A DNA stretch of 32,844 bases from a virus, in IMG/VR virus record IMGVR_UViG_3300021963_000414, positions 1 to 32,844 of that record. The stretch is one strand, 5' to 3'. Shown in pieces: positions 1,816-24,736 of this stretch. A program made the position numbers and the translations under genes. Every line of letters begins with the position of its first letter. Position 1 is the stretch's first letter. The notes under the pieces are model-generated. The model was not told the DNA's origin and did no database searches. It saw nothing but the letters and a program-made list of their open reading frames with translations.

Positions 1816-4019
1816 TTCAGACTGCGACAATCATGGATGCCACTCCCAAAGCGGTGGCTAACACGGTTAAGGCTATAAAGGCAGCCAAAGTGCTGGGACT
1901 GGATATCGAGACGGGGTTCATAGGGGTTGCGCCATTGAAAAAAGATGGCTCAGTAGATTATGAAACCTTGAACCCTCTGACTGGAGCCATTCGTTCCATC
2001 CAAATATGCATTCCGTCGCTTTCATTGGGCGGGCAAGTGCCGGTGATGCAACTACTTGGCGATGAGTGTGAAGGATGTGAAGTTTTGGATGCGTTGCTTG
2101 AGCATGTCCAGGACAAGTCCAAAACGACCGTAATTCACAACGCGCTATATGAAGGGGAATGGTTCCTGCACAAATATGGAGTGCTGATAAACAATGCGTT
2201 TTGCACGTTGGTAGCGCATCAAATTGAGACTGCCGGCTTAGCGGATTGCATTGCCGGACTTTACGGGGGGTCAGCCAACAGCCTTGCCACGGTGACAGAG
2301 CGGAAACTTGGAATAGGGATAACCAAGGAATTGCAAGTGTCAGATTGGTCAAAACCTCTGACTCCAGAGCAGTCAAAGTACGCCATGTTGGATGCCTATC
2401 TTGTTGTGCGGCTGTACGAAAAGTTCAAATATTTGCTGGATACGCCAGCGGCCCGCGCTGAAATGGGCAGTTTGGGCATGTTCATTGTTTTAAACACTCG
2501 CGGGACACCGGCGTCAATACAAAAGCTGAAAGAATTGGAAGCTGATTATAGCCGGATATTAGCCAAACGTAAATCGGAACTAATTAAGGAAGCGGACAGT
2601 TTGATGACTGAGGAGTTGCGGGCTGAGATAATGCCCAAAACCTTGAGCAAGAAAAAGCGGCTGGAATGGGAATTTAATTTAAAAAGCCCGCAGCAAGTAA
2701 AGAAACTGTTGAACAAACTTCTGCGTGAAGCCGGTATGGCGGAGATTGAAAAGACGGATGCAAGCACATTGGAGAAACTGTATCTACCATTTGCTCAAAA
2801 GATTACGGAGTACCGCACCCTGAGTAAATTGCTGGAATACGCTGAAGCTTTTGTTAGCAATTACCGAGAATCTGACCGAGCTGTTTTATGCAAATACTCG
2901 GTTCTAGCTTATAACGCAGCGGCAGGGCGCTCATCAGCCAGCAACGGAAGCTTGCAGATTGTGGCAAACACTTCCCCTCTCTTAGCATCTGAAAACTTAG
3001 GCGGCCTAAAAACGGCATTCCTGCACCCCCGGATTGAGCGCGATAAGTATGGCACATACAATGATGAGGAACATGTTGCCATAAAGTGCGACTTGCCAGC
3101 GTCTCACCTTCAGCTTGTGGCAGCACTGACGGGTGATGAATTGCTCATGTATTGTCTGAGTAATGATGAGAAGGTTCACTACCACACCCTAAACCGGATG
3201 CTGCAACTGATGGGTGTGGACAGTAGCTTTCAGATGGTGAAAACGTGGTTTACTAAACCTAACCACGGGGGAGTAACATTCCAGCGGGGGGCGACGCATA
3301 TTACTGAAGCCGAGATGCAGGCTTATTACGTCCTAGCCAAAAACGTGATTTATTCGTTCATTAACTTTGCTGGGGCTATTAGTCTCAATAACACTTTCTT
3401 GAAAAAGAAGATACACACCACGGTTGATGAGTGCCGAATCTTCTTGCAAGCGTGTAAAGACATGTATAAGAGCGTTTATAACTTTCAACGCGAGATTGCA
3501 CGAACGGCGGAAAGCAACGTTGAGGTTTTATGGGATGAGCCAGAGCATGATGAGGAATGCAATCGTCTGGCAGGGCTGTACGGTGCCCATGTGAGTAAAC
3601 GGGGGGCTTCCTTCCTAGCGCGGGCCGTGTCGAAAATAATGCCAGATGGGCGCAAACTTTACTTCACTGCCAAGGCTGTGATAGATGACAGTATCGACGT
3701 TGGGGATGATTCCGCAGATGAGGTCACATGGAAGTGCCGGCCATCCAATATAGTGGCAGCCCATTGGTTAGCGACTGAGGCAACAATCATGAAATCGGTT
3801 GGTGCGCGGTTGATTGATGCTTTCTTGGCACGTCCTGAGTGGCAGGCGTCAGTGCGAGCGTTTGCGCATGATGAAGTGGTTATATGGGTCAAAAAGTCCT
3901 ACGCTCCAGATGCCGCACAGCTTTACATGGAATTTGTCACAGAGGAGTTTCGCAAGTATGTGCCATTTTTCCAGCCTGAATCTCCAGTTGTGATGAAAAA
4001 TTGGGAGCATAAGTATTGA
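1800..4019 (+). CDS. polA: Family A DNA polymerase with 3'-5' exonuclease domain
   Basis: 739 residues, the replicative polymerase of the element. The exonuclease domain has DIET (D35, E37), an Exo II-like HNALYEGEW near residue 120, and YAMLDA (Exo III) near residue 198; there is no 5'-3' nuclease domain. In the polymerase domain, motif A is D431-L-P-A-S-H-L-Q-L-V-A-A-L-T-G-D instead of the usual D-Y-S-Q-I-E-L-R, so the steric-gate Glu is His and the Arg is Gln. Motif B keeps the Lys (K514, AKNVIYSFINFAGA) but not the classic F-G-x-x-Y-G. Motif C is A-H690-D691-E692. Start at 1800 is supported by GGAG at 1791-1794. It overlaps the resolvase gene by 16 bases. Confidence 0.92.
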   Translation: MLIGLIQTATIMDATPKAVANTVKAIKAAKVLGLDIETGFIGVAPLKKDGSVDYETLNPLTGAIRSIQICIPSLSLGGQVPVMQLLGDECEGCEVLDALLEHVQDKSKTTVIHNALYEGEWFLHKYGVLINNAFCTLVAHQIETAGLADCIAGLYGGSANSLATVTERKLGIGITKELQVSDWSKPLTPEQSKYAMLDAYLVVRLYEKFKYLLDTPAARAEMGSLGMFIVLNTRGTPASIQKLKELEADYSRILAKRKSELIKEADSLMTEELRAEIMPKTLSKKKRLEWEFNLKSPQQVKKLLNKLLREAGMAEIEKTDASTLEKLYLPFAQKITEYRTLSKLLEYAEAFVSNYRESDRAVLCKYSVLAYNAAAGRSSASNGSLQIVANTSPLLASENLGGLKTAFLHPRIERDKYGTYNDEEHVAIKCDLPASHLQLVAALTGDELLMYCLSNDEKVHYHTLNRMLQLMGVDSSFQMVKTWFTKPNHGGVTFQRGATHITEAEMQAYYVLAKNVIYSFINFAGAISLNNTFLKKKIHTTVDECRIFLQACKDMYKSVYNFQREIARTAESNVEVLWDEPEHDEECNRLAGLYGAHVSKRGASFLARAVSKIMPDGRKLYFTAKAVIDDSIDVGDDSADEVTWKCRPSNIVAAHWLATEATIMKSVGARLIDAFLARPEWQASVRAFAHDEVVIWVKKSYAPDAAQLYMEFVTEEFRKYVPFFQPESPVVMKNWEHKY
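2997..3009. repeat. TTAGGCGGCCTAA palindrome inside polA
   Basis: Perfect 13-bp palindrome, encoding L-G-G-L-K in the polymerase frame. It is one of about 17 family members in the window. Confidence 0.8.
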
Positions 4020-4044
4020 TAGTCAGAAGCTGTTTCGTTATAAT
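4016..4044 (+). promoter_or_regulatory. Promoter of the 4074 / parM-like operon
   Basis: TTGATA (4016-4021), exactly 17 bases, TATAAT (4039-4044). The -35 box overlaps the polymerase stop codon. Confidence 0.85.
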
Positions 4045-4062
4045 AAAGGAGTAACGAAACAG
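4030..4062. promoter_or_regulatory. Perfect 11-bp inverted repeat operator over the promoter
   Basis: CTGTTTCGTTA (4030-4040) and TAACGAAACAG (4052-4062) are perfect reverse complements, separated by 11 bases that carry most of the -10 box and the expected start site. A dimeric repressor bound here would block the promoter; the product of the next gene is a candidate for autoregulation. In RNA only the downstream arm would be transcribed in full, so a DNA operator is more likely than an RNA hairpin. Confidence 0.75.
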
Positions 4063-4073
4063 CGAGACACAAA

Positions 4074-4514
4074 ATGCACTGTGGATTCCCAAGAAAATTT
4101 CTGGATTTAAGTACGGTGGACGCCATCGTAAAAGATGGCGTGACACTTTACCGGCTTGAGGATGCTATCACCCAATCGGGAGTGATGTCCGGCAGAACCA
4201 AGTCATCGCTAAATTACCATATTACCAAGGTGCTGAGTACATTTGGCGAGTACCCGCAGTATACTGTTGGGATACGGCGTAAAGGAGAAGGGGGAGTGTT
4301 AACCTTAAGTGGCACTTTAGCACAGCCTGGACATTATGTATGTGAGGCGCTACTGTACAAACTGCTTTTTCTCAGTACCCTTCAAGAGTTCCAAAGATGT
4401 GTGGAAGATATCATCACAGAAGTTGTGCCGCAAGTGATGAAACAGGGTTGGTATATTAGCCCAAACTTGAGTGCTGAACAAAAAAATCAAATCTTGAAAA
4501 CCTTAGCTAATTAG
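4074..4514 (+). CDS. Hypothetical protein, 146 aa (possible DNA-binding regulator of the partition operon)
   Basis: 146-residue soluble protein, first gene behind the palindromic operator at 4030-4062 and followed 10 bases later by the ParM-like gene. The N-terminal half is basic with GRTKSSLNYHITKVLSTFGE at about residues 41-60, which could form a helix-turn-helix-like fold; the C-terminal half is helical (CEALLYKLLFLSTLQEFQRC). I recognise no family. By position it could be an autorepressor or the DNA-binding adaptor of the actin-based partition system (ParR-like), but that is inference from context alone. Confidence 0.6.
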   Translation: MHCGFPRKFLDLSTVDAIVKDGVTLYRLEDAITQSGVMSGRTKSSLNYHITKVLSTFGEYPQYTVGIRRKGEGGVLTLSGTLAQPGHYVCEALLYKLLFLSTLQEFQRCVEDIITEVVPQVMKQGWYISPNLSAEQKNQILKTLAN

Positions 4515-4523
4515 GCTACCTAA
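4511..4523. repeat. TTAGGCTACCTAA palindrome directly before the parM-like start
   Basis: Lies one base before the ATG at 4525, overlapping the stop codon of the previous gene. No other ribosome-binding site is evident. Confidence 0.75.
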
Positions 4524-4524
4524 A

Positions 4525-5598
4525 ATGACTACTTGTAAGCTCTATGTTGGTTGTGACACTGGAAACGGTCTGACTAAAGTTGCCTTCTCTGACGACACCG
4601 GCAATTTAAAAGTCGTAAAGTATCCAAGTTATGTGATTCAAGTGCCAATGGAAGATGTCGCTAACGGCTCTTACGCAAATCTGAGTAATGGGGCAATCAT
4701 TACTTACGTTAGCGGGCCCCGGAAAGATTTAGTTGATACGTCATGGTTATTGGGTAACACGGCATACACCAATTTCCCGGACACTCGGCGGGCTGTTGTA
4801 GAGTCGAATGATGGCAAGGTGCTATATGGGCTGCAACTTTTCTTAGGCAGCCTTGCTATGGCTGGTTTTGTCGGTCGAGAAACTATCCATATACGCCTCT
4901 GTGTGTCTGTCCATAACAAGATCGCCTTCCAAAAGGATATTGTTGAGGCTTATAGCGGGTTGCACCAAATAAAGCAAGCTGAATCCTCACAATCTATTTG
5001 GGTTAATATCTCAGCGGCTTGTGTTGAAGAAGGTCGTGGAACGATATATTACCTGATACAAAAGGGGATTATCACATCAGAAACTCCTTTGGCAGGGTTG
5101 ATAGATTTAGGGGATGGCACTACTCGTGCGAGTATGTACACCATCGGGGACAAGAGTTTTACGGTCATTCCTGAAAGTGTCAAAGTAACCAACACCGGCG
5201 TGCGAAATTTGCTGCGACGCATGGCTAATCACAGTTCTTTGACAGAACCATTGCAGAGCAAAGTTGACCAGGAAATAATTCGGGTTAGCTTGGAAAATAG
5301 TGCCAAAAATGGCATGTATTATGGAAACACCGCCGTGGGTTTGACAGAAGCTTATCAAGCATGCCTTAAAGAGTGGTTGGATTCAAGCGTGCGGCCCGCA
5401 ATAAGCGCCTTAGATTCCTGGAAAGCCGTCGCGGTGATTTACACAATTGGTGGTGGCACACAACTTCCTGGGATTGAAAAGTTACTGTACACACCCAACA
5501 AACTGACGGGACGCCCACGGTTCAACGTAACCCCAGAACCCCAACTGAGTAACGCAATAGGGCTATCAAGTGCTGCAAAAAGGATGGAGAAAGCATGA
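4525..5598 (+). CDS. ParM-like actin ATPase (plasmid/phage segregation)
   Basis: 357 residues, typical for bacterial actin-like ATPases that form filaments pushing or positioning DNA. The actin-fold nucleotide motifs are present in order: phosphate-1 V-G-C-D11-T-G-N-G-L-T-K, phosphate-2 L-I-D194-L-G-D-G-T-T, and the adenosine motif Y-T-I-G309-G-G-T-Q-L-P-G. It overlaps the next gene by ATGA (5595-5598), as ParM-type genes often do with their adaptor. The gene starts one base after a TTAGGC palindrome. Together with the absence of an integrase in the window it suggests maintenance as a plasmid. An alternative is a phage cytoskeletal filament that positions replication sites; the sequence alone cannot separate these. 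Confidence 0.85.
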   Translation: MTTCKLYVGCDTGNGLTKVAFSDDTGNLKVVKYPSYVIQVPMEDVANGSYANLSNGAIITYVSGPRKDLVDTSWLLGNTAYTNFPDTRRAVVESNDGKVLYGLQLFLGSLAMAGFVGRETIHIRLCVSVHNKIAFQKDIVEAYSGLHQIKQAESSQSIWVNISAACVEEGRGTIYYLIQKGIITSETPLAGLIDLGDGTTRASMYTIGDKSFTVIPESVKVTNTGVRNLLRRMANHSSLTEPLQSKVDQEIIRVSLENSAKNGMYYGNTAVGLTEAYQACLKEWLDSSVRPAISALDSWKAVAVIYTIGGGTQLPGIEKLLYTPNKLTGRPRFNVTPEPQLSNAIGLSSAAKRMEKA

Positions 5599-5855
5599 AA
5601 GGCGTTAAAGTATATATGAGTGACGAACTAGTTAAAAAGCTTTTCCCAGATGGTACGTCAAAAACCCTCTTGGAAGTGCTGGATACCGTAAAAAGCCCAG
5701 AATTTAAAGCAATAGCATCAAGCCTGGGTTTGGCTGATAAAGATTGGGCGATTGTGTTTAAATTGGCGGTATGCAACTGGCAAAACAAAGGGCCAGCAAG
5801 ACATCCCACAGTGCCGCCAAACGGACTAGACATTGACATTGACATTTTCAGCTAA
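5595..5855 (+). CDS. Small partner of the ParM-like protein, acidic hydrophobic C-terminal tip
   Basis: 86 residues, start overlapping the actin gene by ATGA, with GGAG at 5585-5588 supporting the start. The body is helical (LFPDGTSKTLLEVLDTVKS...). The C-terminus is N-G-L-D-I-D-I-D-I-F-S, an acidic tip ending in a phenylalanine that resembles partner-binding tails such as that of SSB. In ParM/AlfA-type operons the gene at this position is the DNA-binding adaptor (ParR/AlfB), and the size fits, but I cannot identify a ribbon-helix-helix. It is followed by a strong terminator. Confidence 0.65.
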   Translation: MKGVKVYMSDELVKKLFPDGTSKTLLEVLDTVKSPEFKAIASSLGLADKDWAIVFKLAVCNWQNKGPARHPTVPPNGLDIDIDIFS

Positions 5856-5861
5856 GTTTTG

Positions 5862-5889
5862 AACCTCTGACTAACCTCAGAGGTTTTTT
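5862..5889 (+). terminator. Rho-independent terminator
   Basis: AACCTCTGA (5862-5870) and TCAGAGGTT (5877-5885) form a perfect 9-bp stem with a six-base loop and a T6 run. It ends the 822-5855 gene block. Confidence 0.92.
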
Positions 5890-6190
5890 GTATGCAAACT
5901 TTGGTTTTTTGTATGAAAAGTAAACTTTGTGGGGCCATTTTGTGTCATTGGGGTGTTAAAGGGGTACTTTGGGGGTTAGTCACAGAGTAATTAACCAGTC
6001 ACAAGCTAAATAACCGGGGCAATTTAGGTCAATATGTGGGTGAAAGTACCTCAAATAATCCCAAATTGGGTATACAAGTTAACTTGTTCTGCACTAGTAG
6101 AGGTATCAAAAGTCCCCAAAATGGTCTAAAAGGGTCTAAAAGGGTGTTTTTCCTTATAAGTAGATGCTCAGACGCTTGAAGTTTATGTGT
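5890..6190. other. Non-coding region with direct repeats and a palindrome: possible centromere or origin
   Basis: About 300 bases without a convincing gene. It contains a direct repeat TTTTTTGTATG (5884 and again from about 5906) with nearby AAACTTTG copies, a perfect 14-bp palindrome ACAAGTTAACTTGT (6074-6087), a tandem GTCTAAAAGG pair (about 6124-6143) and many short G runs. Its position just after the ParM-like pair makes it a candidate binding region for the partition adaptor; this is inference. Confidence 0.4.
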
Positions 6191-7119: not shown

Positions 7120-8397
7120 ATGAAAGTTATCTTGTCAATTATAGCCCTAAGCAATCTTTTGGTTGGACTGGCACTATTCCATTCAGCCTCCCAACGATTT
7201 CCACAAGTCAATACCGAAACTGAACAAATGACAGCGGCTACCGGTGGAAGGCAAGTGAGCATTATGGCTCCCGCTCCCACGGCCAATCTGCAATGGGGAG
7301 TAGGGCTACTATCAGCGGCCACTGGTGCGGCAGCCGGTGTGGTGGCAATGAGGAACCTAGCGGCGGTGGGTGAGCGGCCTGTGGATGAGGTGGATGAGGT
7401 GGATGAGGTGGATGAGGTGGATGAGGTGGATGAGGTGGATGAGGTGGATGATGCGCCGATATTTTCATGGCTGCCCCAAAAACAACCAGTCCAACCTGTT
7501 TTTAATAGCCCATTGCTAGATAGCCAAAATAACCCCCAACTTGCCAGTGTTATAAAAGCCGGTGCGCTTTTGGTATGCGGGCCGCAAGGTTCTGGTAAAT
7601 CAACACTTATCGGCGGGATTATAGCGGCGAGACTGCAAATGGGGCATGAAGTAATTGTCTTTAACCATCACGCAGCCTACCAAGAATACGCACCGCTGAA
7701 AGTGTATGGAGCCGGCAACAAAGGATTGAGTTTTGATGAAATACAGCAAGGCTTGGTTTGGCTAAAAGAGGAATTGGAAAGAAGGTATGAGATGCGCTCA
7801 CACCCACAAAACCCTGACGGCAAGTGGGATTTTGAAAGTCAACCAATAACGGTGATTTTTGAAGAATTTTCATCGTACTCCAGAAAACTGCCTGACCCCG
7901 ATATCATGGCGGAATTAATGGGGGCTTTTACAGAAGAAATTCGCAAGGCTTGTATTTTCCCCATACTGACTGTTCACTCTCTCAGTGCCCGTAAAGCCGG
8001 TGGTGGAGTTACTGGTATTGTCACCGAACTCAAGAATAACTTTCCTCGGATTATTCTAGGCAATAAACCGGGGCCCAATGGAGAAGGCATGGTGCCGTCA
8101 GGGTTCTGTGAAGTGTTCATACCGGGACAGATGAACGCCAAAAGTGTCAAGGTGCCCCACCGCTCTGAAATGGTGCCGAATCCAGATAAACCATTAGACT
8201 TCACTTCCTTAGTACGCCCGACTAAAGGCGGGATTGCTGACTTGGCTAAAGGCAAGCAAGTGCTGACGTTAGAGGCTGCTATGGAGGCTGGTTACAGTCA
8301 GGAAGAAGTGTTGAGTGAATTCGAGAGGTTGGGACAAACTGGACAAGCTCTACTTAATAAAGAAAAAACCACAATGCGCTTGACAAATCTAACATGA
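7120..8397 (+). CDS. Membrane-anchored FtsK/HerA-like P-loop ATPase
   Basis: 425 residues. Residues 3-22 form a membrane segment and 58-80 a second hydrophobic stretch; then an acidic V-D-E linker (from residue 88) made by a 9-bp DNA repeat. Walker A is G154-P-Q-G-S-G-K-S-T, Walker B I-T-V-I-F-E248-E249-F. L-K-E-E-L-E-R-R-Y between them and L-T-V-H-S-L-S-A after them resemble the E-x-x-x-R and Q/H-sensor segments of FtsK/HerA DNA pumps. Such membrane ATPases move DNA or protein through membranes (conjugation coupling proteins, filamentous-phage Zot/pI, FtsK). Here it sits between membrane proteins and cell-wall hydrolases, unlike the separate cytoplasmic terminase at 25888. Substrate unknown. 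Confidence 0.75.
   Translation: MKVILSIIALSNLLVGLALFHSASQRFPQVNTETEQMTAATGGRQVSIMAPAPTANLQWGVGLLSAATGAAAGVVAMRNLAAVGERPVDEVDEVDEVDEVDEVDEVDEVDDAPIFSWLPQKQPVQPVFNSPLLDSQNNPQLASVIKAGALLVCGPQGSGKSTLIGGIIAARLQMGHEVIVFNHHAAYQEYAPLKVYGAGNKGLSFDEIQQGLVWLKEELERRYEMRSHPQNPDGKWDFESQPITVIFEEFSSYSRKLPDPDIMAELMGAFTEEIRKACIFPILTVHSLSARKAGGGVTGIVTELKNNFPRIILGNKPGPNGEGMVPSGFCEVFIPGQMNAKSVKVPHRSEMVPNPDKPLDFTSLVRPTKGGIADLAKGKQVLTLEAAMEAGYSQEEVLSEFERLGQTGQALLNKEKTTMRLTNLT
7381..7452 (+). repeat. 9-bp tandem repeat, 7 perfect units plus 1 variant
   Basis: GTGGATGAG repeated in frame, encoding (Val-Asp-Glu)n; the last unit ends GAT. Unit length is a multiple of three, so copy-number changes alter linker length without a frameshift. 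Confidence 0.95.
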
Positions 8398-10513: not shown

Positions 10514-10535
10514 AATGACCATTATGGATGAGTTC

Positions 10536-10835
10536 GCCACACCCCCCAAAAATAGGGTGTTGGCAGACTGAACAGTGGAAAGCCTTAGGTGGGGGCACTT
10601 CCAGGTTTGCCACACTCTACCACACTCTACCACCCCCTGTTTAGAAAACTCCTTATAAACTACTCTCCTCTATCCACCCCCCTCCCCTCCCACCATTCTT
10701 CTCCTTATTTATTAGAAATAGGGGGTGGTAGAGTGTGGTAGGGTGTGGCAAGTTCTAGCCTCCTAGGGAAATGGCACTTTCCACGGATGAGCCTGCCAAC
10801 ACCCTACCCTAAAAATAGGGTGTGGTAGGTGTGGC
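10536..10835 (-). repeat. R2: 300-bp three-hairpin repeat, reverse
   Basis: Same structure as R1 on the opposite strand. The outer flanks add an inverted repeat of about 22 bases: ATGACCATTATGGATGAG (from 10515) on the left and CTCATCTATAATGGTCAT (to 10856) on the right, so the full unit may be 10514-10857. Central stem: TTGCCACACTCTACCACACT near 10599 pairs with the stretch ending GGTAGGGTGTGGCAA near 10751, about 31 of 32 positions. Confidence 0.95.
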
Positions 10836-10877
10836 AGACTCATCTATAATGGTCATTCTACCATTATGGATGAGTTC

Positions 10878-11177
10878 GCCACACCCCCCAAAAATAGGGT
10901 GTTGGCAGACTGAACAGTGGAAAGCCTTAGGTGGGGGCACTTCCAGGTTTGCCACACTCTACCACACTCTACCACCCCCTGTTTAGAAAACTCCTTATAA
11001 ACTACTCTCCTCTATCCACCCCCCTCCCCTCCCACCATTCTTCTCCTTATTTATTAGAAATAGGGGGTGGTAGAGTGTGGTAGGGTGTGGCAAGTTCTAG
11101 CCTCCTAGGGAAATGGCACTTTCCACGGATGAGCCTGCCAACACCCTACCCTAAAAATAGGGTGTGGTAGGTGTGGC
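10878..11177 (-). repeat. R3: 300-bp three-hairpin repeat, tandem copy of R2
   Basis: Offset of 342 bases from R2 and almost base-identical over its full length, so it is a recent tandem duplication (or an assembly-sensitive spot). The flanks differ: left CTACCATTATGGATGAG, right CTGAACTATAATGGTTG. Confidence 0.95.
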
Positions 11178-11187
11178 AGACTGAACT

Positions 11188-11193
11188 ATAATG
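11188..11193 (+). promoter_or_regulatory. Possible -10 box at the R3 edge
   Basis: TATAAT 11 bases outside R3 and 26 bases before the ATG at 11219. The -35 position (TGGTAG, inside R3) is poor. The repeat flank CATAATGG/TATAATGG may donate a -10 element. Confidence 0.4.
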
Positions 11194-11218
11194 GTTGAAG
11201 TACATATTGCGGTTAACG

Positions 11219-14107: not shown

Positions 14108-14454
14108 TGCATGTATTTCACCGTATCACTGGCCAGCACAAGTAACCAGCCAGTTTTGTCAGTCACAACTGTGTAAGGGCTTACATTGATTTCAGTGACT
14201 TTTAAAATATCCCCAACGGCAACCATACCTGACGCTGATTGAGCCACCTTGACAGTATCGCGGACATTGACATCTTTGTTGAATGGAGAAAGTACCCTGA
14301 ATTTATAAAACTGCACTGAGCTGTCCAACAATTCCTGAGGGTAGGTTCTTACGTTACTGGTTGCCGCCGTTAAAATGCCTAAAAGCTGTCCTGAACTGTG
14401 AGTAAGGATAGTTTGATTTATTAGGCGACCTAAAAGGGGAGAGAAAGCGGTCAT
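14104..14454 (-). CDS. Probable head-tail connector/neck protein, 116 aa
   Basis: Strand-rich protein placed between the capsid and the virion morphogenesis genes, where neck or head-closure proteins are encoded. The V-G-D-I-L-K-V-T-E-I-N-V-S segment and the C-terminal W-L-L-V-L-A-S strand fit a small barrel. ATGA overlaps on both sides show tight coupling. No sequence signature was recognised; the function is inferred from gene order. Confidence 0.5.
   Translation of the reverse strand: MTAFSPLLGRLINQTILTHSSGQLLGILTAATSNVRTYPQELLDSSVQFYKFRVLSPFNKDVNVRDTVKVAQSASGMVAVGDILKVTEINVSPYTVVTDKTGWLLVLASDTVKYMQ
14421..14433. repeat. TTAGGCGACCTAA palindrome
   Basis: Lies at the start of the connector gene (S-P-L-L-G-R-L on the minus strand), 21 bases inside its start codon. 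Confidence 0.75.
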
Positions 14455-15392
14455 GCCGGTTTAGCAAAATCTCGGTAGATAATCCTGAGTGGTTGACGAA
14501 CAATAATTTCTGACGAACGCTGATGCATCGCAACACTCCAGTGCATTATTGGATAATTCATCGCGTTAGTTGTTCGCAATGGGGCGGCATAGCGGCTGAC
14601 CGTATCAGGGCTGCGCTGGTAGATAACCAGGCGGTCTTTATTTGTGCCTGCATTAAAGACGCCACCTTCTTCAAGCATCTCGTAAGAAAGCTCTGGAAGC
14701 ATCTCAATATCGGAAAAGTAGATACCCTTTGATGGGTCAGTCAGCATCGAGAATGGAGTGATATTGGGGGAATCCACCGACAGCGGCTCAGTCAGTTGGC
14801 GATAAAGTGCCGGTGGGCAAAGCATGCTGAACTGATTTGGCGCAATCTTAGACTGCCTAGAAACGTTCCAAAGCAGTGAGTGGAAATAAAGGTACAGGTT
14901 TTGGGCTGTTAGAGTGTATGGCGATGTGGTTTCAACGGCTGTTGTGACATCAGGGTGTTTCAAGAAGCCTTTAAAATTGGTATCACCAAAAGCAATGGCT
15001 TTGTTGATATTTTCACCGATAATGCGACTGGCAGCCTGCATTTTTAATTGCACCGGCCCCAACGGTCGAGTTATTTCACCGACAGATTGCGCTCGCTGGT
15101 AATATGTGACTTCTTTCTCATTCCATACAACACTAATAGCCCATTCAGCGGAAGTCCAGCTGTGTGATGACATTAAGACATCAACTGTTGGGATGTCAGT
15201 GGCAATGCCGTTATACCGGGCTGCCATGCCGGTAAAGTCCTGACGGTACTGTTTGATAAAGTCAACTCCATCAGGAAGCTGACCTATGACAGGAACAAGC
15301 ACGCCATTATAAAACCTTAGTTCATCCCTGACAGTTTGAAGAATCTCAGGCAGGACTAAAGTTAGCTCTTTTTCTAAAAATTGAATGCTCAT
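14451..15392 (-). CDS. Major capsid protein (DUF2184-like, HK97 fold expected)
   Basis: 313 residues, right for a capsid protein of the DUF2184/coat family. The N-terminal arm (FLEKELTLVLPEILQTVRDE) is followed by an R-F-Y-N-G-V-L-V-P-V segment and Y-R-Q-D-F-T-G-M-A, then the conserved-looking E-W-A-I-S-V-V-W, A-A-S-R-I-I-G-E-N-I-N-K-A-I-A-F-G-D run that these proteins use before the G-x-x-G-F/L loop (here TNFKGFLKHP). The end (RQPLRIIYRDFAKPA) resembles the usual last strand. It follows protease and decoration genes and precedes connectors, the standard order. Confidence 0.8.
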   Translation of the reverse strand: MSIQFLEKELTLVLPEILQTVRDELRFYNGVLVPVIGQLPDGVDFIKQYRQDFTGMAARYNGIATDIPTVDVLMSSHSWTSAEWAISVVWNEKEVTYYQRAQSVGEITRPLGPVQLKMQAASRIIGENINKAIAFGDTNFKGFLKHPDVTTAVETTSPYTLTAQNLYLYFHSLLWNVSRQSKIAPNQFSMLCPPALYRQLTEPLSVDSPNITPFSMLTDPSKGIYFSDIEMLPELSYEMLEEGGVFNAGTNKDRLVIYQRSPDTVSRYAAPLRTTNAMNYPIMHWSVAMHQRSSEIIVRQPLRIIYRDFAKPA

Positions 15393-15886
15393 TATTTGTT
15401 CAGTTTGATAATTGCCAAACCATTGCTGGTGCCGGAAATAAACATGGCGCCGCTAACCAAGTCGAGCCCTGTGCCAGCGGCAGAGGCAACTCCACCCAAA
15501 GTGGTCTTAGCCCCGTCAGCTGTGTGGCGGACATAGACATTATCACCAGGCTTAGCGCCGTTGGATTCGCAAGATATCCAAATATCCCCTTGAGTCAGAA
15601 TATCTGCAAAACCCCCATTGGGGATGCCATCAGTATTACCGCTCTCAAGGTAGGCAGCATTTTTGGAAGTGTTGTAAACAGTGGCACCAACAATTAACTG
15701 ACCGGTGGCTGACGGCAACTTGATGGTATTGTCGGTTTTATCTAAAGCTACAAGACGGCCAAAGGGGACACTTCCTGATGCTGTCCACTCTGGCACGGCT
15801 TGATAGATTGTCACTTTGTTCGTTGTCGCAATCTGTCCGGGCTGGCCAGGAACAGAGTAAAGACCAATTGAAGTTTGAAGCGTCAT
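15392..15886 (-). CDS. Head decoration/cement-like structural protein, 164 aa
   Basis: Gly/Ala/Thr-rich, strand-rich protein with the pattern VPFGRLVALDKTDNTIKLPS and VGATVYNTSKNAAYLESG, typical of DUF2190-like capsid-associated proteins encoded between the protease and the capsid protein. One-base overlap with the capsid gene and 4-base overlap with the protease gene. It probably trimerises on the head surface; this is by family resemblance and position. Confidence 0.65.
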   Translation of the reverse strand: MTLQTSIGLYSVPGQPGQIATTNKVTIYQAVPEWTASGSVPFGRLVALDKTDNTIKLPSATGQLIVGATVYNTSKNAAYLESGNTDGIPNGGFADILTQGDIWISCESNGAKPGDNVYVRHTADGAKTTLGGVASAAGTGLDLVSGAMFISGTSNGLAIIKLNK

Positions 15887-16683
15887 TTGACTTTCCGATA
15901 AGCTTGGGTTAAACGTAGCATGTAATCACCCTCAAAGTCTTTGGAGGGCGCGTCGGTTTGGGGAATATTAGGGGAAGAGGTTTTAGGCTGCCTAAAATCA
16001 AGCACAGCTTGGCACTCTTTCAGTGACAGAGATGACGCATCCTTGTTTGACAAGGCTGTTACCACTTTCTGCAATAGTGTCAGCTTGTCCCAGTTATAGT
16101 CAGGCTCAATACCGGCGGCAACTAGACTATCCCTGTGAGCTTGATGAAGGCTAACTAATTCAGCAACTGGGGAATCAATCAAAGCTCTAACCTCGCTACC
16201 GGCTCTACCGGATTGTGTAATAGCAATGTGGTTGTATTCACGCTTTGTCTGTTTATAAAGACTGTCAGACAAGGGTTCCTTTTCGGCAAAATAGCCGCTG
16301 CTGACTTCCTTAAGGTTGCCTTTTTCCAAAGCTTCTATGGTAGCTTCATCCCAAATAATCGCAGCGGCGGTCAGGTAACTGGGGTCACTGTCGTGATTTT
16401 CCTGGACAATTTCCTGCAGCACTGTTCCGACAGAATACTTGCGGCGCTCGGCTAGTGAGAGAACCATACCAGGGGGGTGTTCCAATGTTACAGGCACACC
16501 AACAAGACTGCGCATACTCTCGGAGTCAAAAAGGGTGTCCGCTGGGACTGTCTGTTTGTGTGAGCCGTAATCAAGCTCACCGGTACGGGCAACTCGTAAC
16601 CAAGCAAGTAGCGAGCCGTCCGGAAGCTTTTTATAGTTTCTTACACAATCTCCACTGATGGAATCGAATTGAAGATTTGACAT
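15883..16683 (-). CDS. DUF2213-type prohead protease/scaffold
   Basis: 266 residues, first gene of the head operon. The DUF2213 pattern is clear: W-L-R-V-A-R-T-G-E-L-D-Y near residue 29, V-P-A-D-T-L-F-D-S-E-S-M, G-V-P-V-T-L-E-H-P-P, V-G-T-V, Y-L-T-A-A-A-I-I-W-D-E, E-V-S-S-G-Y-F, and Y-N-H-I-A-I-T-Q-S-G-R-A-G-S-E-V. These proteins mature the prohead. The C-terminal 90 residues are polar with a short helix and could act as scaffold. It probably starts from a promoter at about 16703-16715 with an ACGCGCTTAA motif. Repeat R4 lies upstream. Confidence 0.85.
   Translation of the reverse strand: MSNLQFDSISGDCVRNYKKLPDGSLLAWLRVARTGELDYGSHKQTVPADTLFDSESMRSLVGVPVTLEHPPGMVLSLAERRKYSVGTVLQEIVQENHDSDPSYLTAAAIIWDEATIEALEKGNLKEVSSGYFAEKEPLSDSLYKQTKREYNHIAITQSGRAGSEVRALIDSPVAELVSLHQAHRDSLVAAGIEPDYNWDKLTLLQKVVTALSNKDASSLSLKECQAVLDFRQPKTSSPNIPQTDAPSKDFEGDYMLRLTQAYRKVK
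15983..15995. repeat. TTAGGCTGCCTAA palindrome in the protease gene
   Basis: Encodes F-R-Q-P-K on the minus strand; the same five residues are encoded by the copy at 25937 in the terminase. Confidence 0.75.
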
Positions 16684-16708: not shown

Positions 16709-16732
16709 TATAATAACGCGCTTAAGCGTTAA
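16709..16732. promoter_or_regulatory. Promoter/operator of the head operon
   Basis: On the minus strand a TATTAT -10 (16715 to 16710) lies about 27 bases before the start at 16683. It is joined to AACGCGCTTAAGCGTT (16715-16730), an imperfect palindrome centred on GCTTAAGC. ACGCGCTT also stands at the terminase operon start (25318) and ACGCGCT in the iterons (29132-29236). No convincing -35. Confidence 0.5.
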
Positions 16733-16742
16733 TGTTGTGTCC

Positions 16743-17042
16743 GCCACACCTACCACACCCTATTTTTAGGGTAGGGTGTTGGCAGACTCATCCGTGGAAA
16801 GTCAGATTTCCCTAGGAGGCTAGAACTTGCCACACCCTACCACACTCTACCACCCCCTATTTCTAATAAATAAGGAGAAGAATGGAGGGAGGGGAGGGGG
16901 GTGGATAAAGTAGAGTAGTTTATAAGGAGTTTTCAAAACAGGGGGTGGTAGAGTGTGGCAGAGTGTGGCAAACCTGGAAGTGCTACCACCAAAGGCTTTC
17001 CACTGTTCAGTCTGCCAACACCCTATTTTTGGTAGGTGTGGC
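16743..17042 (+). repeat. R4: 300-bp three-hairpin repeat
   Basis: Same architecture as R1. The left flank (GTTGTGTCCGCC) is shared with R5 (GTTGTGTCTGCC), showing that R4 and R5 derive from one insertion type or that the homologous unit extends outside the 300 bp. The micro-ORF is at 16882-16908 with a TAA stop. Confidence 0.95.
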
Positions 17043-17316
17043 GGGCGCTACTGTAAGGGTATTGGGATTTAAATGTATGACCATAACGAAACATTTTGCC
17101 CCTTTTCCCCCTACCTCGACCCCCAAAATTGCCTGTTTCCGTGATTGCACTAGGGCTAAAAGACTTCCTTTTGGGGTTAAATGGCACCATTGTTTTCATG
17201 CTGTCACAACTAACTGGCACAGGCTTGTATGGAAAACCAAGGAAAAATTAACTGTGGAATCAGCGTGTATAAGAGTGTCAAAGCGTGAAGTAGCGGTTTT
17301 CTCTATAACTAGAGCT
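17043..17316. other. Non-coding leader region before the primase promoters
   Basis: About 270 bases; open frames here lack a start context and run through R4, so I see no gene. It shares the 10-mer CGTGAAGTAG (17284-17293) and the 12-mer CTATAACTAGAG (17303-17314) with the non-coding region before the portal operon (29070-29079, 29048-29059). Confidence 0.5.
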
Positions 17317-17447: not shown

Positions 17448-20090
17448 ATGTCCACGGCAGTTACAACCAAAACCGTTGCCTTGATGGTCAATGATGCAAT
17501 GAAAGCACTGACCAAATCTGAAGCTCTAACACTAGCCAATCGCAACACAGCTCAAAACTGGAAACAGCAAATTTTCACTGTAGACCAATTTGCATCATAT
17601 ATCTCTTGCGGCGGAACGTGGCGTCCTGGTATCAACAACCACGGAGACAAGAACGTATCGGAAACCATTAACCGGTTTAACTGTATTGCTTTGGACTTTG
17701 ACGGTCTGCCTTTACCGGGGGAGGCTAAGCCAAGCGGTTTTAGTGATGGGGCTATGCTGACTCCAAGTGCTGCGATTGCCTACCGCACTCTCTCGTGGTC
17801 AAAAGAAAAGCCCTACAAGGAACGCTTAGTTTTCATCTTTGACCGCCAAGTAAATGCTGATGAGTACAAGACAATTTTCAAAGAGTTACGCAAGGTTTAC
17901 CCTAATAGCGACCCAGCTTGCGGTGACAATATTCGCTTTTTCTTTGGCTCCAATCAGCCATGCCTGTTTTACCGTGACGTCACTCTTGAAGTTGACAGTA
18001 TCTTGAATAGCGCCCCACAAGAAAAACCAAAAGAGAAGCGGGCTGCAACAAAGTCCAAGAAGACTTCTAAGCATCTGACAATGGCTGAGATTGTCTATCG
18101 TGATATTCTTAGCACTAAACTTGACGGTGACGTAGAAAAACTCTACTGTTTGTGGCCCCACAATTTCAAGGAACGGACTCCTGATGCGGAAGACAGTATC
18201 CTTAAACTTGAAGGGCGCAACCCGTTCTCAGCCACGGATAGCACCGGCAGTTCATTTGTGGTGACTCAGTTGGAAGGGCAGCTACCCATCTGGCATGACC
18301 GCTCAATGAATTTAGGTAGCCAAAATGGTTTCAACGGGGGAAATGGCGGAACCATCTTTGAATACTGGTTTAAACTGCACCCTGATTTCAAAAACAGTGA
18401 TGTGCGATTCAGTATGGCCAGTGTGATTCTCAGCATCTACCGGCATTTTGAAGTCATGATGCCTGATGATTTCTTGATTGAATACTACCTTGATATTTTG
18501 CGCCACCGTCTTCCCGGAAAACTTCGTCTTAATTTGCTTGGCAATCGTGTTGAGTATGATGGCAAGCCTTTACCGGATGAGATTATCACTTGGTTTTCTA
18601 ACAAGACTCTGATTACTGAAACTCGCGTTCAGGTTCTGTTGCAGTGCGTGCGAACAGTGGCTCGTGAGAATGCTTACCACCCTTTCAAAGAGTATCTGGA
18701 GAAGCTAGGAACCAAATATACCCCTAACGCTCAGCTCTGGGATGATTGCGCAACAGTGCTTTTTGGCATACCAAAGAGCAGCCCTTACCACGCACTTTAC
18801 ACAGCGTTCTGGCAAAAATTTTTGCTAAGTACCCTTGCCCGCGTGTACTACCCCGGTATTAAATACGATTGCTCCATCATAATACTGGGGCCGCAAGGTT
18901 GCGGTAAAACCGAAACTTTCCGCTATGCCGTGCCCCCACAATGGCACTACACCAACGGCTCTTTCAAGCTTGACCGCGATACGGTGCTGGCTAGCTGGCA
19001 AGCTGTTTTGGTCGGTTTTGATGATGTTGCCGGTATGCAGCATAAGAAAGAGGTTGAGGAAGTTAAAGCTTACCTGTCATCCTCATCAGCAATTGTGCGG
19101 GAACCTTACGCAACCACTTCCATAGAAATTCCCCGCAGTTGGAATGTCTATATGACCTCTAACGCATCCAAAGCCACGGGGGTTTTAGGAGACGTGACCG
19201 GCCACCGTCGTTTTAATATTATCGACACTGAATACTGCCTTGCGGGCGACATCAAGGTGCCCATTCCTGTCAAATACCAAATCTTTGGGCAACTCTGGCT
19301 ATCAGCCCTAGAACATTTTAAACAGCTACCTCAGGAGGATTTGCACCAGTTATCTTCAGCCTTAAATATTGAGCCTGAGATGTGGGCGTTAAACCACGAA
19401 CATAATGAGCAGTACCTCGCCCGTGGTGTCTTGCTGGAAGCGGTAGACCACGCACTGCAAACCAAATTGGGGCCCGGTGAAGATACCATAACCATGCTGC
19501 AACTTTGCCAAATGGTTGCCCCCGGTACTAATATGTCCTCTCGCGAACAGGGCAACATCGCACAGCACTTGCACAATTTGGGATGGCGTCGTGTGGATAT
19601 GTGGGGCAAAGTAAATGGGCGCACGACTAAAAAACGTGTTTGGAAGCGTCCTGAAGAACAAGAAGACAAAGCACAGAAGGTTTTAGGCTACCAAAAAGTT
19701 GACATTGATTCTTACCTCTTGCCTTTAAAGGAGTCAGCCCCCGCACCGGCCCCCGCACCAAAACCTGCCGCACCGACCCCCGCACCAAAACCTGCCGCAC
19801 CGACCCCCGCACCAAAACCTGCCGCACCGACCCCCGCACCAAAACCGCCCGCACCGACCCCCGCACCCGCACCGTCTCCTGAGGATGCTGAATGGGAGAA
19901 GCAAGTTCAATTAGAGCAAAAACGTCTGCGTGAGGAATTTGAAAGCGGCGTAACACCCACAACTGAATTGGAACCTGAGGAAGAAGATTACTTTGAGGCT
20001 CCTGACCCTGAAAAAGTCAAAGCCATTGTAGAGCGTGTACGGGCACGAATGGTTCTGATAAATAAAGCCGTAAAACCGGAAAACCCTTAG
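17448..20090 (+). CDS. Primase-helicase (AEP-type primase plus VirE/D5-like superfamily 3 ATPase)
   Basis: 880 residues from ATG 17448; the frame is open from 17334 but that start lies upstream of the consensus promoter, and GGAG at 17438-17441 supports 17448. The N-terminal primase-like domain has A-L-D83-F-D85-G and later N-I-R-F-F-F-G-S. The ATPase domain has Walker A G481-P-Q-G-C-G-K-T-E, Walker B V-G-F-D525-D526, the sensor Y-M-T-S-N and G-H-R-R-F (arginine finger), as in virulence-associated E proteins and D5-like helicases. A Pro/Ala linker (about 764-810) made of a 27-bp DNA repeat leads to an acidic helical tail. It probably primes and unwinds the genome. It stands alone among structural genes and overlaps the convergent hub gene by 4 bases. 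Confidence 0.88.
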   Translation: MSTAVTTKTVALMVNDAMKALTKSEALTLANRNTAQNWKQQIFTVDQFASYISCGGTWRPGINNHGDKNVSETINRFNCIALDFDGLPLPGEAKPSGFSDGAMLTPSAAIAYRTLSWSKEKPYKERLVFIFDRQVNADEYKTIFKELRKVYPNSDPACGDNIRFFFGSNQPCLFYRDVTLEVDSILNSAPQEKPKEKRAATKSKKTSKHLTMAEIVYRDILSTKLDGDVEKLYCLWPHNFKERTPDAEDSILKLEGRNPFSATDSTGSSFVVTQLEGQLPIWHDRSMNLGSQNGFNGGNGGTIFEYWFKLHPDFKNSDVRFSMASVILSIYRHFEVMMPDDFLIEYYLDILRHRLPGKLRLNLLGNRVEYDGKPLPDEIITWFSNKTLITETRVQVLLQCVRTVARENAYHPFKEYLEKLGTKYTPNAQLWDDCATVLFGIPKSSPYHALYTAFWQKFLLSTLARVYYPGIKYDCSIIILGPQGCGKTETFRYAVPPQWHYTNGSFKLDRDTVLASWQAVLVGFDDVAGMQHKKEVEEVKAYLSSSSAIVREPYATTSIEIPRSWNVYMTSNASKATGVLGDVTGHRRFNIIDTEYCLAGDIKVPIPVKYQIFGQLWLSALEHFKQLPQEDLHQLSSALNIEPEMWALNHEHNEQYLARGVLLEAVDHALQTKLGPGEDTITMLQLCQMVAPGTNMSSREQGNIAQHLHNLGWRRVDMWGKVNGRTTKKRVWKRPEEQEDKAQKVLGYQKVDIDSYLLPLKESAPAPAPAPKPAAPTPAPKPAAPTPAPKPAAPTPAPKPPAPTPAPAPSPEDAEWEKQVQLEQKRLREEFESGVTPTTELEPEEEDYFEAPDPEKVKAIVERVRARMVLINKAVKPENP
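18312..18324. repeat. TTAGGTAGCCAAA, palindrome-family variant in the primase gene
   Basis: Encodes N-L-G-S-Q-N; symmetric alternative pairing (T/A instead of C/T on each arm). Confidence 0.55.
19683..19695. repeat. TTAGGCTACCAAA, palindrome-family variant
   Basis: Encodes V-L-G-Y-Q-K in the primase-helicase, shortly before the Pro/Ala repeat. Confidence 0.55.
19752..19859 (+). repeat. 27-bp tandem repeat, four units
   Basis: Encodes P-A-P-K-P-A-A-P-T three times and P-A-P-K-P-P-A-P-T once in the primase-helicase linker. In-frame and likely variable in length. Confidence 0.92.
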
Positions 20091-21687: not shown

Positions 21688-22074
21688 TCAAATACTCCTG
21701 ACAAATGTCAAGTCTAGTTTGTAAATATAGTCGTATTGACCGGTGCCGTCATTGACTATCTTTTCAATCTCCACATCCATCTTTTCTAAAGCCGCTCCCA
21801 AAACACCCACTGTGTAATCAATCAGCAACGCCCGCTGTAAATCCGTTGGCAACGCTGAGAAATAGGCTAGCCACTGAGCGTATTTTGCAGCGTCAACCCT
21901 CAGAGACATATAGAAATAGTCAAACTGATTGGCTTGTGGCACGGTCAATACATTGGTGTTAACCCTTTGGGACAGGTACTGATTGAGTGTCATCGTTGAC
22001 CTAAATGACAGCATCTCGTGCCGCTCTATAGGAATTGTCCCGTAGGATGCAAAAGTCTGAAGAAATACCGGCAT
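21688..22074 (-). CDS. Tail/baseplate-type protein, 128 aa
   Basis: Strand-rich N-terminus (MPVFLQTFASYGTIPIERHE), a helical middle (YAQWLAYFSALPTDLQRALL) and a C-terminal strand pair (YDYIYKLDLTFVRS). Similar in size and layout to the following gene. Its start overlaps the tape measure stop by one base. Gene order suggests a tail-tip or baseplate role; no family recognised. Confidence 0.5.
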   Translation of the reverse strand: MPVFLQTFASYGTIPIERHEMLSFRSTMTLNQYLSQRVNTNVLTVPQANQFDYFYMSLRVDAAKYAQWLAYFSALPTDLQRALLIDYTVGVLGAALEKMDVEIEKIVNDGTGQYDYIYKLDLTFVRSI

Positions 22075-24413
22075 TAGGATTGCTTCCGATTTTTAAAAAA
22101 TTCACTGCGACTCAGGTAATCCAAAAATTGCCCTTGTGCGCTTCTAAGCGAGTTGATAATTTCGGTGCCACTCATTTGAGAGCTAACATTGACAGTTTGG
22201 TTGTAATTAATTACCACCGACTGACTTTCATTACTGTTATTTACCGGTGCAGGTAGCACACCGCCCGCACTGACTGCTGACAGCACTGGTGACACATTTC
22301 CTTGAATGTTTGGTAATGGCAGCGACGCAAGTATAGATTTTAGGCGGCCTAATAACTCGCCGCCATTGATGTTTGCCGCAAAAGTGCCTAACAGCGCTTG
22401 CCCGGATTTGTCCAAATCTTTCAATGGCCCTTCCTTGGCCGGTGAACTGGGTAGCAGGTTACGAACTTGCTTGACACTATTGGACACGGCATTGTAAGCA
22501 TTAGCCGCACTTGATGCCACCCCTTGAGCAAACGACTGCATCAAAGACGCGCCAGAGTTGAAAAACTGGGGGACGGCATTTTGCACTGCTGACACAGCTT
22601 GAGCCACAGCACTCTTGACATTATTTACCACCCCAATAACGCCCTGGAACGAATTAGTTGCGGCATTGACCATACCATTCAGCGTTGATATCAGGGTTGA
22701 AACAACACCGCCTACCGATTGAGCCACCCCATTAAATGCTTGCCCAACACCGGAAACCGCCTGGGTCACACCGCTGATTACCAACGAAAGGGCCGCTTTG
22801 CTCTGGGAGGCAACATTGGAAATGTACGCAATGGCCGGCTCTAAATTGGTTTTTGCTGCCAACGCAATGGGGGCCAAAATGGCTATTACTGAATTGCCCA
22901 ACGAGGCAAAAGCACTGCCAACCGATTTTAATGCCGCCCATAAATTGCCCATAAGGTAGCCGGCTAGGCTGACTAAAGCATCTCTGCATCCCCCAACATT
23001 GAACGTCAGAGCTACCACAGCGGCAACGGCTGCAGCAATTAATCCAGGCACCGATATCAAAGCACCGCCCACAGCTGCAATGGCTGTACCCAAACCGCCT
23101 AAACCAACCGACAGTGCCCCTGTGACACTGCCCATACCAGCTAGGGCCGCACTGGCACCACCAACAGCACCGCTAATGGCTGTGAAAGCGGTTATCATTC
23201 CACCTATAGCCGTCACAACAGGGCCAATAACCGCTAAGCCCCCACCAGCAATTACAAAAAATTTTGCCCATTCCGGGTTGTTATTCAGAAAGGCTGATAA
23301 GCGCTGGGCTAATGGGGTCAGAACGGCTAAAGCTTGGCTTAACAATGGAACAAGCACTGAACCTAATTGCACCCCTAATGCCGTTAATTGAGCCTGCAAA
23401 ACTTTCGACTGCATTGCAGGGTCTTGCATTTTAAGTCCAAACTCTGACTGCATTTTGGCCAAATTGGCTGTGTCATCGCCTGCAACTTTGAACGCACTTG
23501 AAAGTTTTGTCGTTTGAGTTGCTAGAGTGGCAATTTCTGATGAGGATGTTTTGCCAAATATCTGTATCAGCAAGCTGCTCTTTTGAACGGGGTCAGAAAT
23601 ACTATTTAATCTATTTAAAAACGTCAACAATGAGCCGGTTGCATCCTTGCTCATTGACTGGCCAAAAGTTGCCGCTGAAAATCCCATTGACTCAAAAGCC
23701 GCTTTCGCTTGTGGGGTGGCACTTCCTATGGTGAAAAGTTTTTCTGCAAAGTTTTGGAATGCCGTCCCCGCTCTTTCCGGAGCTATACCTACCGACTCAA
23801 ACACGGAACCAAAGGATGCCACCTGGTTAGCGGTCAGCCCCATCGTCTTGCCAACAGCCCCAACCCTGGAAGTGAACTCCAAAATATTCGGGGTAGTCCC
23901 ACCAATCTTGTCATCCAAAGCATTTACAGCAGCGCCAAATTTTTCAAACTCTGCCGTATTCTGTTGAAAGATTGTTTTGATGGCCCCAGCCTTTTTCGTG
24001 AACTCCCCAATAGGCACATCTGTAATACCGCTTAATTTGGCCAAAACCTGACCAAAAGCAGCAACCTCATCCTTAGCCACACCTAACTTACCCGCTTCCG
24101 CCGCAACATTGGCAAACTCCGTAGGCAGTAACCCCAGTGAGGGGGCCATTGTCAGAATTTCTTTGGAGAGCGCCGCTGTTTCCTTTTTAGTTAAGTCCAA
24201 AGTGCGTGCGGAATTATTCATGGCTGAATTAAACTCCACCGCTTTGGCTGTAGCTGCCCCCATACCAGCAACTATGGGCAGCGTGATACCGGCTGTCATA
24301 GCCCCGCCAATTGCGGCAAAGTTCTTGCCACTGAATTGGCCCATCATACTGTTGAATGCGGTCAGCGCCTGATTTGTTTGGAGCGCTACCAGGATTTCTA
24401 ATGTGTCTGCCAT
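22074..24413 (-). CDS. Tail tape measure protein
   Basis: 779 residues, the longest structural protein. The N-terminal 350 residues match the TP901/phage tail tape measure core (FNSAMNNSARTLDLTKKETA, then G-L-T-A-N-Q-V-A-S-F-G-S-V-F-E-S-V-G-I). The middle has long hydrophobic Ala/Gly helices (around 385-480), probable membrane-inserting segments used during DNA entry. By the usual rule of about 1.5 angstrom per residue the tail would be roughly 115 nm. It starts 23 bases from repeat R5; no ordinary tail chaperone genes with a frameshift lie upstream, which is unusual and fits a broken gene order. Confidence 0.9.
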   Translation of the reverse strand: MADTLEILVALQTNQALTAFNSMMGQFSGKNFAAIGGAMTAGITLPIVAGMGAATAKAVEFNSAMNNSARTLDLTKKETAALSKEILTMAPSLGLLPTEFANVAAEAGKLGVAKDEVAAFGQVLAKLSGITDVPIGEFTKKAGAIKTIFQQNTAEFEKFGAAVNALDDKIGGTTPNILEFTSRVGAVGKTMGLTANQVASFGSVFESVGIAPERAGTAFQNFAEKLFTIGSATPQAKAAFESMGFSAATFGQSMSKDATGSLLTFLNRLNSISDPVQKSSLLIQIFGKTSSSEIATLATQTTKLSSAFKVAGDDTANLAKMQSEFGLKMQDPAMQSKVLQAQLTALGVQLGSVLVPLLSQALAVLTPLAQRLSAFLNNNPEWAKFFVIAGGGLAVIGPVVTAIGGMITAFTAISGAVGGASAALAGMGSVTGALSVGLGGLGTAIAAVGGALISVPGLIAAAVAAVVALTFNVGGCRDALVSLAGYLMGNLWAALKSVGSAFASLGNSVIAILAPIALAAKTNLEPAIAYISNVASQSKAALSLVISGVTQAVSGVGQAFNGVAQSVGGVVSTLISTLNGMVNAATNSFQGVIGVVNNVKSAVAQAVSAVQNAVPQFFNSGASLMQSFAQGVASSAANAYNAVSNSVKQVRNLLPSSPAKEGPLKDLDKSGQALLGTFAANINGGELLGRLKSILASLPLPNIQGNVSPVLSAVSAGGVLPAPVNNSNESQSVVINYNQTVNVSSQMSGTEIINSLRSAQGQFLDYLSRSEFFKNRKQS
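22340..22352. repeat. TTAGGCGGCCTAA palindrome in the tape measure gene
   Basis: Perfect copy; encodes L-L-G-R-L-K on the minus strand. Confidence 0.8.
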
Positions 24414-24436
24414 TTGTTTGGGTTATTGTTGTGTCT

Positions 24437-24736
24437 GCCACACCTACCACACCCTATTTTTAGGGTAGGGTGTTGGCAGACTCATCCGTGGAAAGTCACA
24501 GTTCCCTAGGAGTCTAGAACTTGCCACACTCTACCACACTCTACCACCCCCTATTTCTAATAAATAAGGAGAAGAATGATGGGTGGGGAGGGGGGTGGAT
24601 AAAGGGGAGTAGTTTATAAGGAGTTTTCAAAACAGGGGGTGGTAGAGTGTGGCAGAGTGTGGCAACCCTGGAAGCGCCTCCACCATTGACTTTCCACGGA
24701 TGAGTCTGCCAACACCCTATTTTTGGGGGGTGTGGC
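24437..24736 (+). repeat. R5: 300-bp three-hairpin repeat
   Basis: Same architecture as R1 but the most diverged full copy. In the stem, CCACACTCT replaces CCACACCCT, which improves pairing with AGAGTGTGG of the other side. The loop reads ATGATGGGTGGGGAGGGG; the micro-ORF (24576-24602) becomes M-M-G-G-E-G-G-G with TAA. Confidence 0.95.

Follow-up and report, generated by a model that had tools for sequence, protein, structure and literature searches.

The sequence of a tailed-phage genome supports an actin-type (type II) partition cassette, which was claimed in the original prediction and is backed by homology, gene order and a C-terminal tail common to the small partner proteins of the family. 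The window, that is, the whole stretch of DNA that was analysed, is the whole virus record IMGVR_UViG_3300021963_000414, with 32,844 bases and 41 called genes. Judged by its genes for the terminase large subunit (25792-27237, plus strand), the portal (29577-30851), the major head protein (14451-15392), a protease (15883-16683) and the tape measure (22074-24413), all markers of tailed phages, it is such a phage. In our preferred reading, to which we assign a probability of about 0.55, a plasmid-derived ParM operon maintains the phage in its host as a plasmid prophage of low copy number: ATP-bound ParM would polymerise, an adaptor seated on the phage DNA would grip the filament by its acidic-aromatic C-terminal tail, and the filaments would move or separate the phage DNA circles, which would maintain them in the plasmid state.

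A phage-plasmid is expected to have virion and packaging genes, which are present in the window, and partition or plasmid replication genes without an integrase; of such genes, ParM and a primase-helicase are found. The portal protein has no match in the plasmid collection, and perfect 9-bp tandem repeats (CCACACCCC, 30706-30754) occur in the C-terminal part of its gene. The earlier remark that no integrase is seen holds for the 29 of the 41 genes compared with PHROGs, which cover every called gene longer than 215 aa; the record may be incomplete and, since it starts inside a copy of a 330-bp repeat and ends 20 bases beyond another, its completeness is undemonstrated and the missing integrase is no proof. 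At about 2,629-2,657 kb, a cyanobacterial genome (G146:C1, L067-L068) contains prophage-like genes distantly related to the structural genes, with a terminase 33% identical over 429 aa; this genome has no ParM match at E 1e-6. These genes, together with the cyanobacterial plasmid kin of window genes described below, suggests that the host is probably a cyanobacterium.

The actin-like protein, its partner and the putative operon

The 357-aa ORF at 4525-5598 (plus strand) was correctly recognized in the original prediction as ParM-like, and PHROG 691, "partition protein", covers its residues 7-355 with an E of 2.1e-11. As a single sequence, the protein remains below the Pfam cut-offs (ALP_N 19.2 bits, cut-off 26.3; MreB-like_C 17.6, cut-off 27.8) and its best match to the solved ParMs has an E of only 0.052; a profile built from the family alignment (7 rows), when compared with solved structures, finds the ParMs of pSK41 (3js6, 5.8e-16) and pCBH (1.5e-12), Alp12 (2.2e-9) and CorM (9rmi, 1.1e-8). 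Residues D11, G13, K18, E169, D194, G196 and G309-311, which we take to be the phosphate, catalytic and adenosine positions of actins, are invariant in this alignment. An AlphaFold model made from the seven sequences was too poor for a fold search (pLDDT 41.6).

The relatives of this protein point to plasmids. By tblastn, none of 50,697 phage records matched and 65 of 72,556 plasmid records did, with identities of 26-32% among the 30 matches listed, the closest of which reaches 31.9% over 98%. Of the 65 records, 58 belong to cyanobacterial genera, the genera of the other seven not being named in the tally. Among 386 cyanobacterial genomes, 15 have a match at E 1e-6; since one or more of these matches lie on a 7-Mb contig, the family extends beyond plasmids. 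In IMG/VR, no other contig with this ParM or with the polymerase that precedes it was found. A tree of 41 rows contains a well-supported split that separates 22 rows from the window and 18 others, and the long branch of the window makes its nearest kin unsure. Overall, the cassette is closest to the ParMs of cyanobacterial plasmids and was probably drawn from cyanobacterial plasmid stock.

The gene that follows encodes 86 aa (5595-5855, plus strand), overlaps parM by 4 bases and ends in LDIDIDIFS, in agreement with the small coupled partner with an acidic end that had been predicted; by position and tail we regard it as a ParR-like adaptor. In the loci that were fetched, some of them twice, a small ORF comes next after parM for 47 of 48 ParM hits, giving 39 distinct proteins, and the remaining hit has none in the range searched; the start chosen for 8 of the 39 partner ORFs lies 64-118 bases on. 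The partners end in a similar manner, with LDFDL, NFEDLFVA, DDLDDVFAA, DADLGDLFEEAA and DWSE besides the tail of the window. Defined as an acidic residue at most three places ahead of an aromatic one within the last 12 residues, a motif set post hoc, after inspection of the tails, this trait is present in 36 of 39 distinct partners, which are mutually related. Among 91 controls, other small plasmid proteins picked by hand from the annotated genes of seven plasmid loci with a few small CDS omitted, 24 have it. Counted by BLAST clusters of partners, it is found in five of seven, and a stricter form of the motif, applied with no control set, in 34 of 39. The acidic-aromatic tail of the partner is a family trait. 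The likeness is limited to place and tail, hhalign giving a Prob of 0.1 of 100 between the window partner and those of the plasmids. Adaptors of type II systems are DNA-binding proteins of the ribbon-helix-helix type; no match of the 86-aa protein to a DNA-binding family was found, and its single-sequence model (pLDDT 53.7) was too poor for a fold search; binding to DNA would be part of its putative adaptor role.

The presence of CorM among the structure hits of the ParM profile recalls another use of such genes. In filamentous cyanobacteria, the accessible part of one report (PMC12645912) describes FcmB-FcmC, an actin and a small partner derived from a plasmid partition pair and arranged in the same order, which serve cell shape. 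A filament pair repurposed in this way, as in Nostoc punctiforme, would not move DNA, and we consider it very improbable here: FcmBC is reported there as a chromosomal pair, whereas the pair of the window lies in a phage genome beside plasmid-type genes.

The region from 4016 to 5887 is probably one operon, in which a promoter under autoregulation would precede the genes of a 146-aa phage protein, of ParM and of the ParR-like adaptor, followed by a terminator, because three successive genes together with a promoter-like site, an inverted repeat and a terminator-like hairpin have the appearance of a single unit with its operator. The promoter-like site (TTGATA-17-TATAAT, 4016-4044, within the element 4016-4063 on the plus strand) has 11 of 12 consensus matches and is offered as a suggestion, as the scan found eight such sites in the window and 5.7 in shuffles. 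Over its -10 box lies an inverted repeat with perfect 12-bp arms (4029-4040 and 4052-4063), equalled in none of 100 shuffles, which is a likely operator and a candidate site for the adaptor or a regulator. The other site formerly proposed, at 4030-4062, is real as an inverted repeat, with its arms at 4029-4063 over a near-consensus promoter, and stronger than the one proposed downstream. The first gene of the putative operon (4074-4514, plus strand) encodes the 146-aa protein, which stops ten bases upstream of parM, matches no Pfam family and, over residues 60-135, weakly resembles phage antirepressor profiles (phrog_130, E 2.3e-4). A terminator-like hairpin with a T tail follows the partner gene (5861-5886, plus strand).

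A DNA polymerase gene precedes the cassette, no repressor was identified, and the inverted repeat at the promoter resembles in its location the alpS repeats of the AlpC-AlpA system of prophage CGP3, in which, according to the accessible part of the source, an actin-like protein is co-transcribed with its adaptor and repeats occupy the promoter region (PMC4446434). These features would suit proteins that position or feed phage DNA as it replicates in the productive cycle, without any plasmid prophage. We regard this as possible and distinctly less probable than maintenance as a plasmid, in view of the plasmid ParMs that are the nearest kin, of the ATPase and primase-helicase that also have plasmid kin, and of the weak antirepressor match of the 146-aa protein, a hint of lysogeny. 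One use does not preclude the other.

Candidate DNA sites

The non-coding stretch that follows the cassette (5887-6163) had been proposed as its centromere. The stretch is there (5856-6163 from the end of the partner gene), with a perfect 14-bp palindrome (6074-6087) and repeats, namely two-copy families of 19 and 17 nt and two short Tandem Repeats Finder rows, but the repeats do not exceed shuffles: by the sole statistic applied, 10-mers with at most two mismatches, 4 copies were counted against 3.6 (P 0.49). The best hairpin of the region is the terminator, and the palindrome is one of three perfect 14-bp palindromes in the window, so that a centromere at 5890-6190 is unsupported. Iteration does not exceed shuffles in 3900-4200 either, where the single inverted repeat 4029-4063 is the one feature that stands out; a dispersed palindrome lies further on, at 4510, and no centromere was found for the cassette by sequence. 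Better candidates for an anchor site are the promoter inverted repeat and the palindrome that abuts the parM start. Iterated 10-mers precede parM in 7 of 32 related loci (P at most 0.03, 40 shuffles each), with 6 to 10 copies in L023-L027, of the TAGGGTATAT type in four of them, and 5 copies in L007 and L042; most loci have none, and a missing iteron is thus not unusual.

The palindrome at parM (ATTAGGCTACCTAAA, 4510-4524, plus strand), which ends directly at the ATG, belongs to a dispersed set of 15-bp sites. Within two mismatches of TTTAGGCNGCCTAAA, the window contains 17 copies between 1408 and 32170, with 0.1 expected; the first is at 1408-1422 and the others start at 2996, 4510, 7105, 9013, 12877, 14420, 15982, 18311, 19682, 21598, 22339, 25936, 27069, 27748, 30005 and 32156. 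Their spacing is more even than random placement would give (CV 0.45, P 0.0008). Three end exactly at an ATG, those of a RusA-like gene (1423; a weak match, E 0.0018), of parM (4525) and of the ATPase gene (7120), and most of the others are intragenic. A related phage, IMGVR_UViG_3300047553_000874 (L087, L109), has 40-78% protein identity over the structural half, and its locus L109, which represents that half only, has nine sites in 16.5 kb. Of the five window palindromes located in DNA that aligns with L109, three are conserved, one with 13 and two with 14 identical bases out of 15; 340 of 8,832 background 15-mers reach 14. Among the IMG/VR matches listed (151 loci, picked by an exact match to a palindrome variant or as terminase kin), at least three palindromes occur only in the near copy of the phage and in L109.

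HIP1 is an iterated palindrome of cyanobacteria. The palindrome of the window was rejected as one of this host type, as far as hosts within the sample are concerned, as the exact TTTAGGYNRCCTAAA occurs once each in 8 of 386 cyanobacterial genomes and GCGATCGC is absent from the window. Nor do ParM relatives in general have it: in L002-L007 and L045, all of them plasmid loci and seven in number, top scores are 2-4, compared with 10 for the window and 8 for L109, and three plasmid loci searched with at most two mismatches have none. As far as seen, the palindrome is a trait of the phage lineage. Its link with the cassette is a guess, and the idea that the 17 TTTAGGYNRCCTAAA sites form a genome-wide distributed centromere or capture site, at which the adaptor or another phage protein would bind so that the filament could grip any part of the genome, is a long shot, weakened by the want of a comparable palindrome in the seven plasmid loci.

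Plasmid-type neighbours and the probable unity of the record

Two further genes seem to derive, like the cassette, from cyanobacterial plasmid stock. The P-loop ATPase at 7120-8397 (plus strand) is related to an ATPase gene that comes after parM in Nostoc sp. UHCC 0870, on its plasmids NZ_CP091920 (3e-15) and NZ_CP091921 (2e-9). Such kin lie downstream of parM in 3 of 13 parM loci searched (L045, L007, L008), and seven plasmid records match, from Nostoc, Planktothrix and Pseudanabaena; the genes at the same place in L003 and L004 gave no match, and that of L006 only a P-loop stretch (4e-4). The likely replication gene, a primase with a VapE-type helicase (17448-20090, plus strand), has its kin divergent from parM on NZ_CP091921 (L007; 30% over 247 aa, 3e-19) in 1 of the 13 loci; the large ORFs in divergent orientation in L002 and L006 do not match it. 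In all, it matches 59 plasmid records of mixed bacteria. One Nostoc plasmid therefore shares kin of ParM, ATPase and primase with the phage. A fixed plasmid module was considered and rejected in view of these counts of 3 and 1 in 13. From the plasmid kinship of ParM, the downstream ATPase and the primase-helicase, we lean to a plasmid prophage over the positioning of replicating DNA, a choice that sequence cannot decide.

Other features of these genes are recorded here as observations. The primase-helicase stands on the plus strand amid minus-strand head and tail genes, and its C-terminal part has proline-alanine repeats (27-bp unit, 19741-19867); in the ATPase gene, perfect 9-bp tandem repeats (GTGGATGAG, 7381-7451) encode a Val-Asp-Glu run. 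The segment 7120-10456 contains in a row the P-loop ATPase (FtsK/TraG-like, sub-threshold), small ORFs and CHAP and SLT matches below the Pfam cut-offs, and could be a small module for DNA transfer or entry.

Between gene blocks lie six near-identical palindromic repeats of about 330 bp (447-762, 10518-10853, 10860-11195, 16730-17045, 24422-24736 and 32498-32824, with a further piece at 1-46), which we take to be MITE-like. Copies on both sides of the cassette segment, and two at 10.5-11.2 kb that are 99.4% alike, would allow an assembly chimera, in which a plasmid segment (0.76-10.5 kb) is fused to a phage (11.2-32.5 kb) at these repeats. A second contig of 18.1 kb, IMGVR_UViG_3300021962_000981, which agrees with the window at 99.98% identity across 13 kb of compared sequence, begins at window position 10801, inside the junction repeat; it thus verifies the repeat copies at 16.7 and 24.4 kb and not the join. 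In L109, the 24.4-kb repeat is missing, and the short gap at that place contains a dispersed palindrome. The composition of the record speaks against a fusion: palindromes, rare outside the phage as described above, number 5 in the cassette segment (0.51 per kb) and 12 in the remainder (0.58 per kb), and tetranucleotide profiles of the cassette segment correlate at 0.59-0.71 with those of the structural segments, which correlate at 0.60-0.72 with each other, but at 0.30-0.43 with four stretches of three plasmids. The 330-bp repeat itself has no match in 386 cyanobacterial genomes, an empty answer that by itself shows nothing, and an exact 33-base piece of it was found in IMG/VR only in the second contig, the window's own record being excluded from the scan, a result that also favours a single genome. 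Given the shared palindromes, repeats and tetranucleotide profile, a chimera appears unlikely.

Comparison with known systems

The cassette would extend the actin-type partition of tailed phages, described for Bacillus in the accessible parts of the sources, to a lineage whose cassette has cyanobacterial-plasmid kin, and suggests that phage-plasmids exist in that lineage. It also offers the partner's acidic-aromatic tail for testing as a filament-binding element in a branch of ParM that has received little study, and it brings to light an evenly spaced dispersed palindrome as a putative protein-binding site.

R1 is the type system of ParMRC, or type II partition. As in ParMRC systems (pSK41 and pCBH by profile), an actin-like ATPase is followed directly by a small partner in the window, at low sequence identity, and the tail of this partner would likewise bind the filament; unlike in ParMRC, no iterons were found beside the operon, parM stands second, after the 146-aa ORF, and the partner is assigned by position and tail. 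The closest kin in sequence, ParM/StbA of cyanobacterial plasmids, have the same partner position and tail; some of these loci have iterated 10-mers before parM, unlike the window, and the annotation of the plasmids inspected, five of which were covered partially, includes no tailed-phage genes, which the window has.

Among phages, the accessible parts of published reports offer several parallels. The Bacillus plasmid prophages B83, IEBH and Bp8p-C are tailed phages in which parM is accompanied by the gene of a small adaptor (PMC6669507, PMC8026635); in what those sources describe, the hosts are Bacillus, and B83 carries Xer recombinases as well as a RepA-like gene, of which no counterparts are seen in the window. 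The long-tailed cyanophage Mic1 has ParABS genes, a parS-like palindrome and a prophage antirepressor, taken as a sign of plasmid-like lysogeny (PMC7156551); it is described as a tailed phage with partition genes, as is the window, of class I (ParA/ParB) in Mic1 and of the class II actin type here. Phage-plasmids with ParA/B are likewise reported from ice viromes (PMC4490671). In CGP3, the AlpC-AlpA-alpS system combines a phage actin that assists the replication of phage DNA, a co-transcribed adaptor and repeats at the operon promoter (PMC4446434, PMC5539076), and deletion of alpAC led to a two-fold drop in circular phage DNA (PMC4446434); unlike the window, CGP3 is described as an integrated 187-kb prophage with an integrase, and alpS as a TTAAnnG repeat. 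Among the papers listed on cyanophage ParM or on cyanobacterial phage-plasmid partition, titles and abstract openings mention no ParM cyanophage. The kind of system is thus already known, from the ParM prophages of Bacillus and the ParABS of Mic1, and what is new is another phage member, with a cassette of the cyanobacterial-plasmid type.
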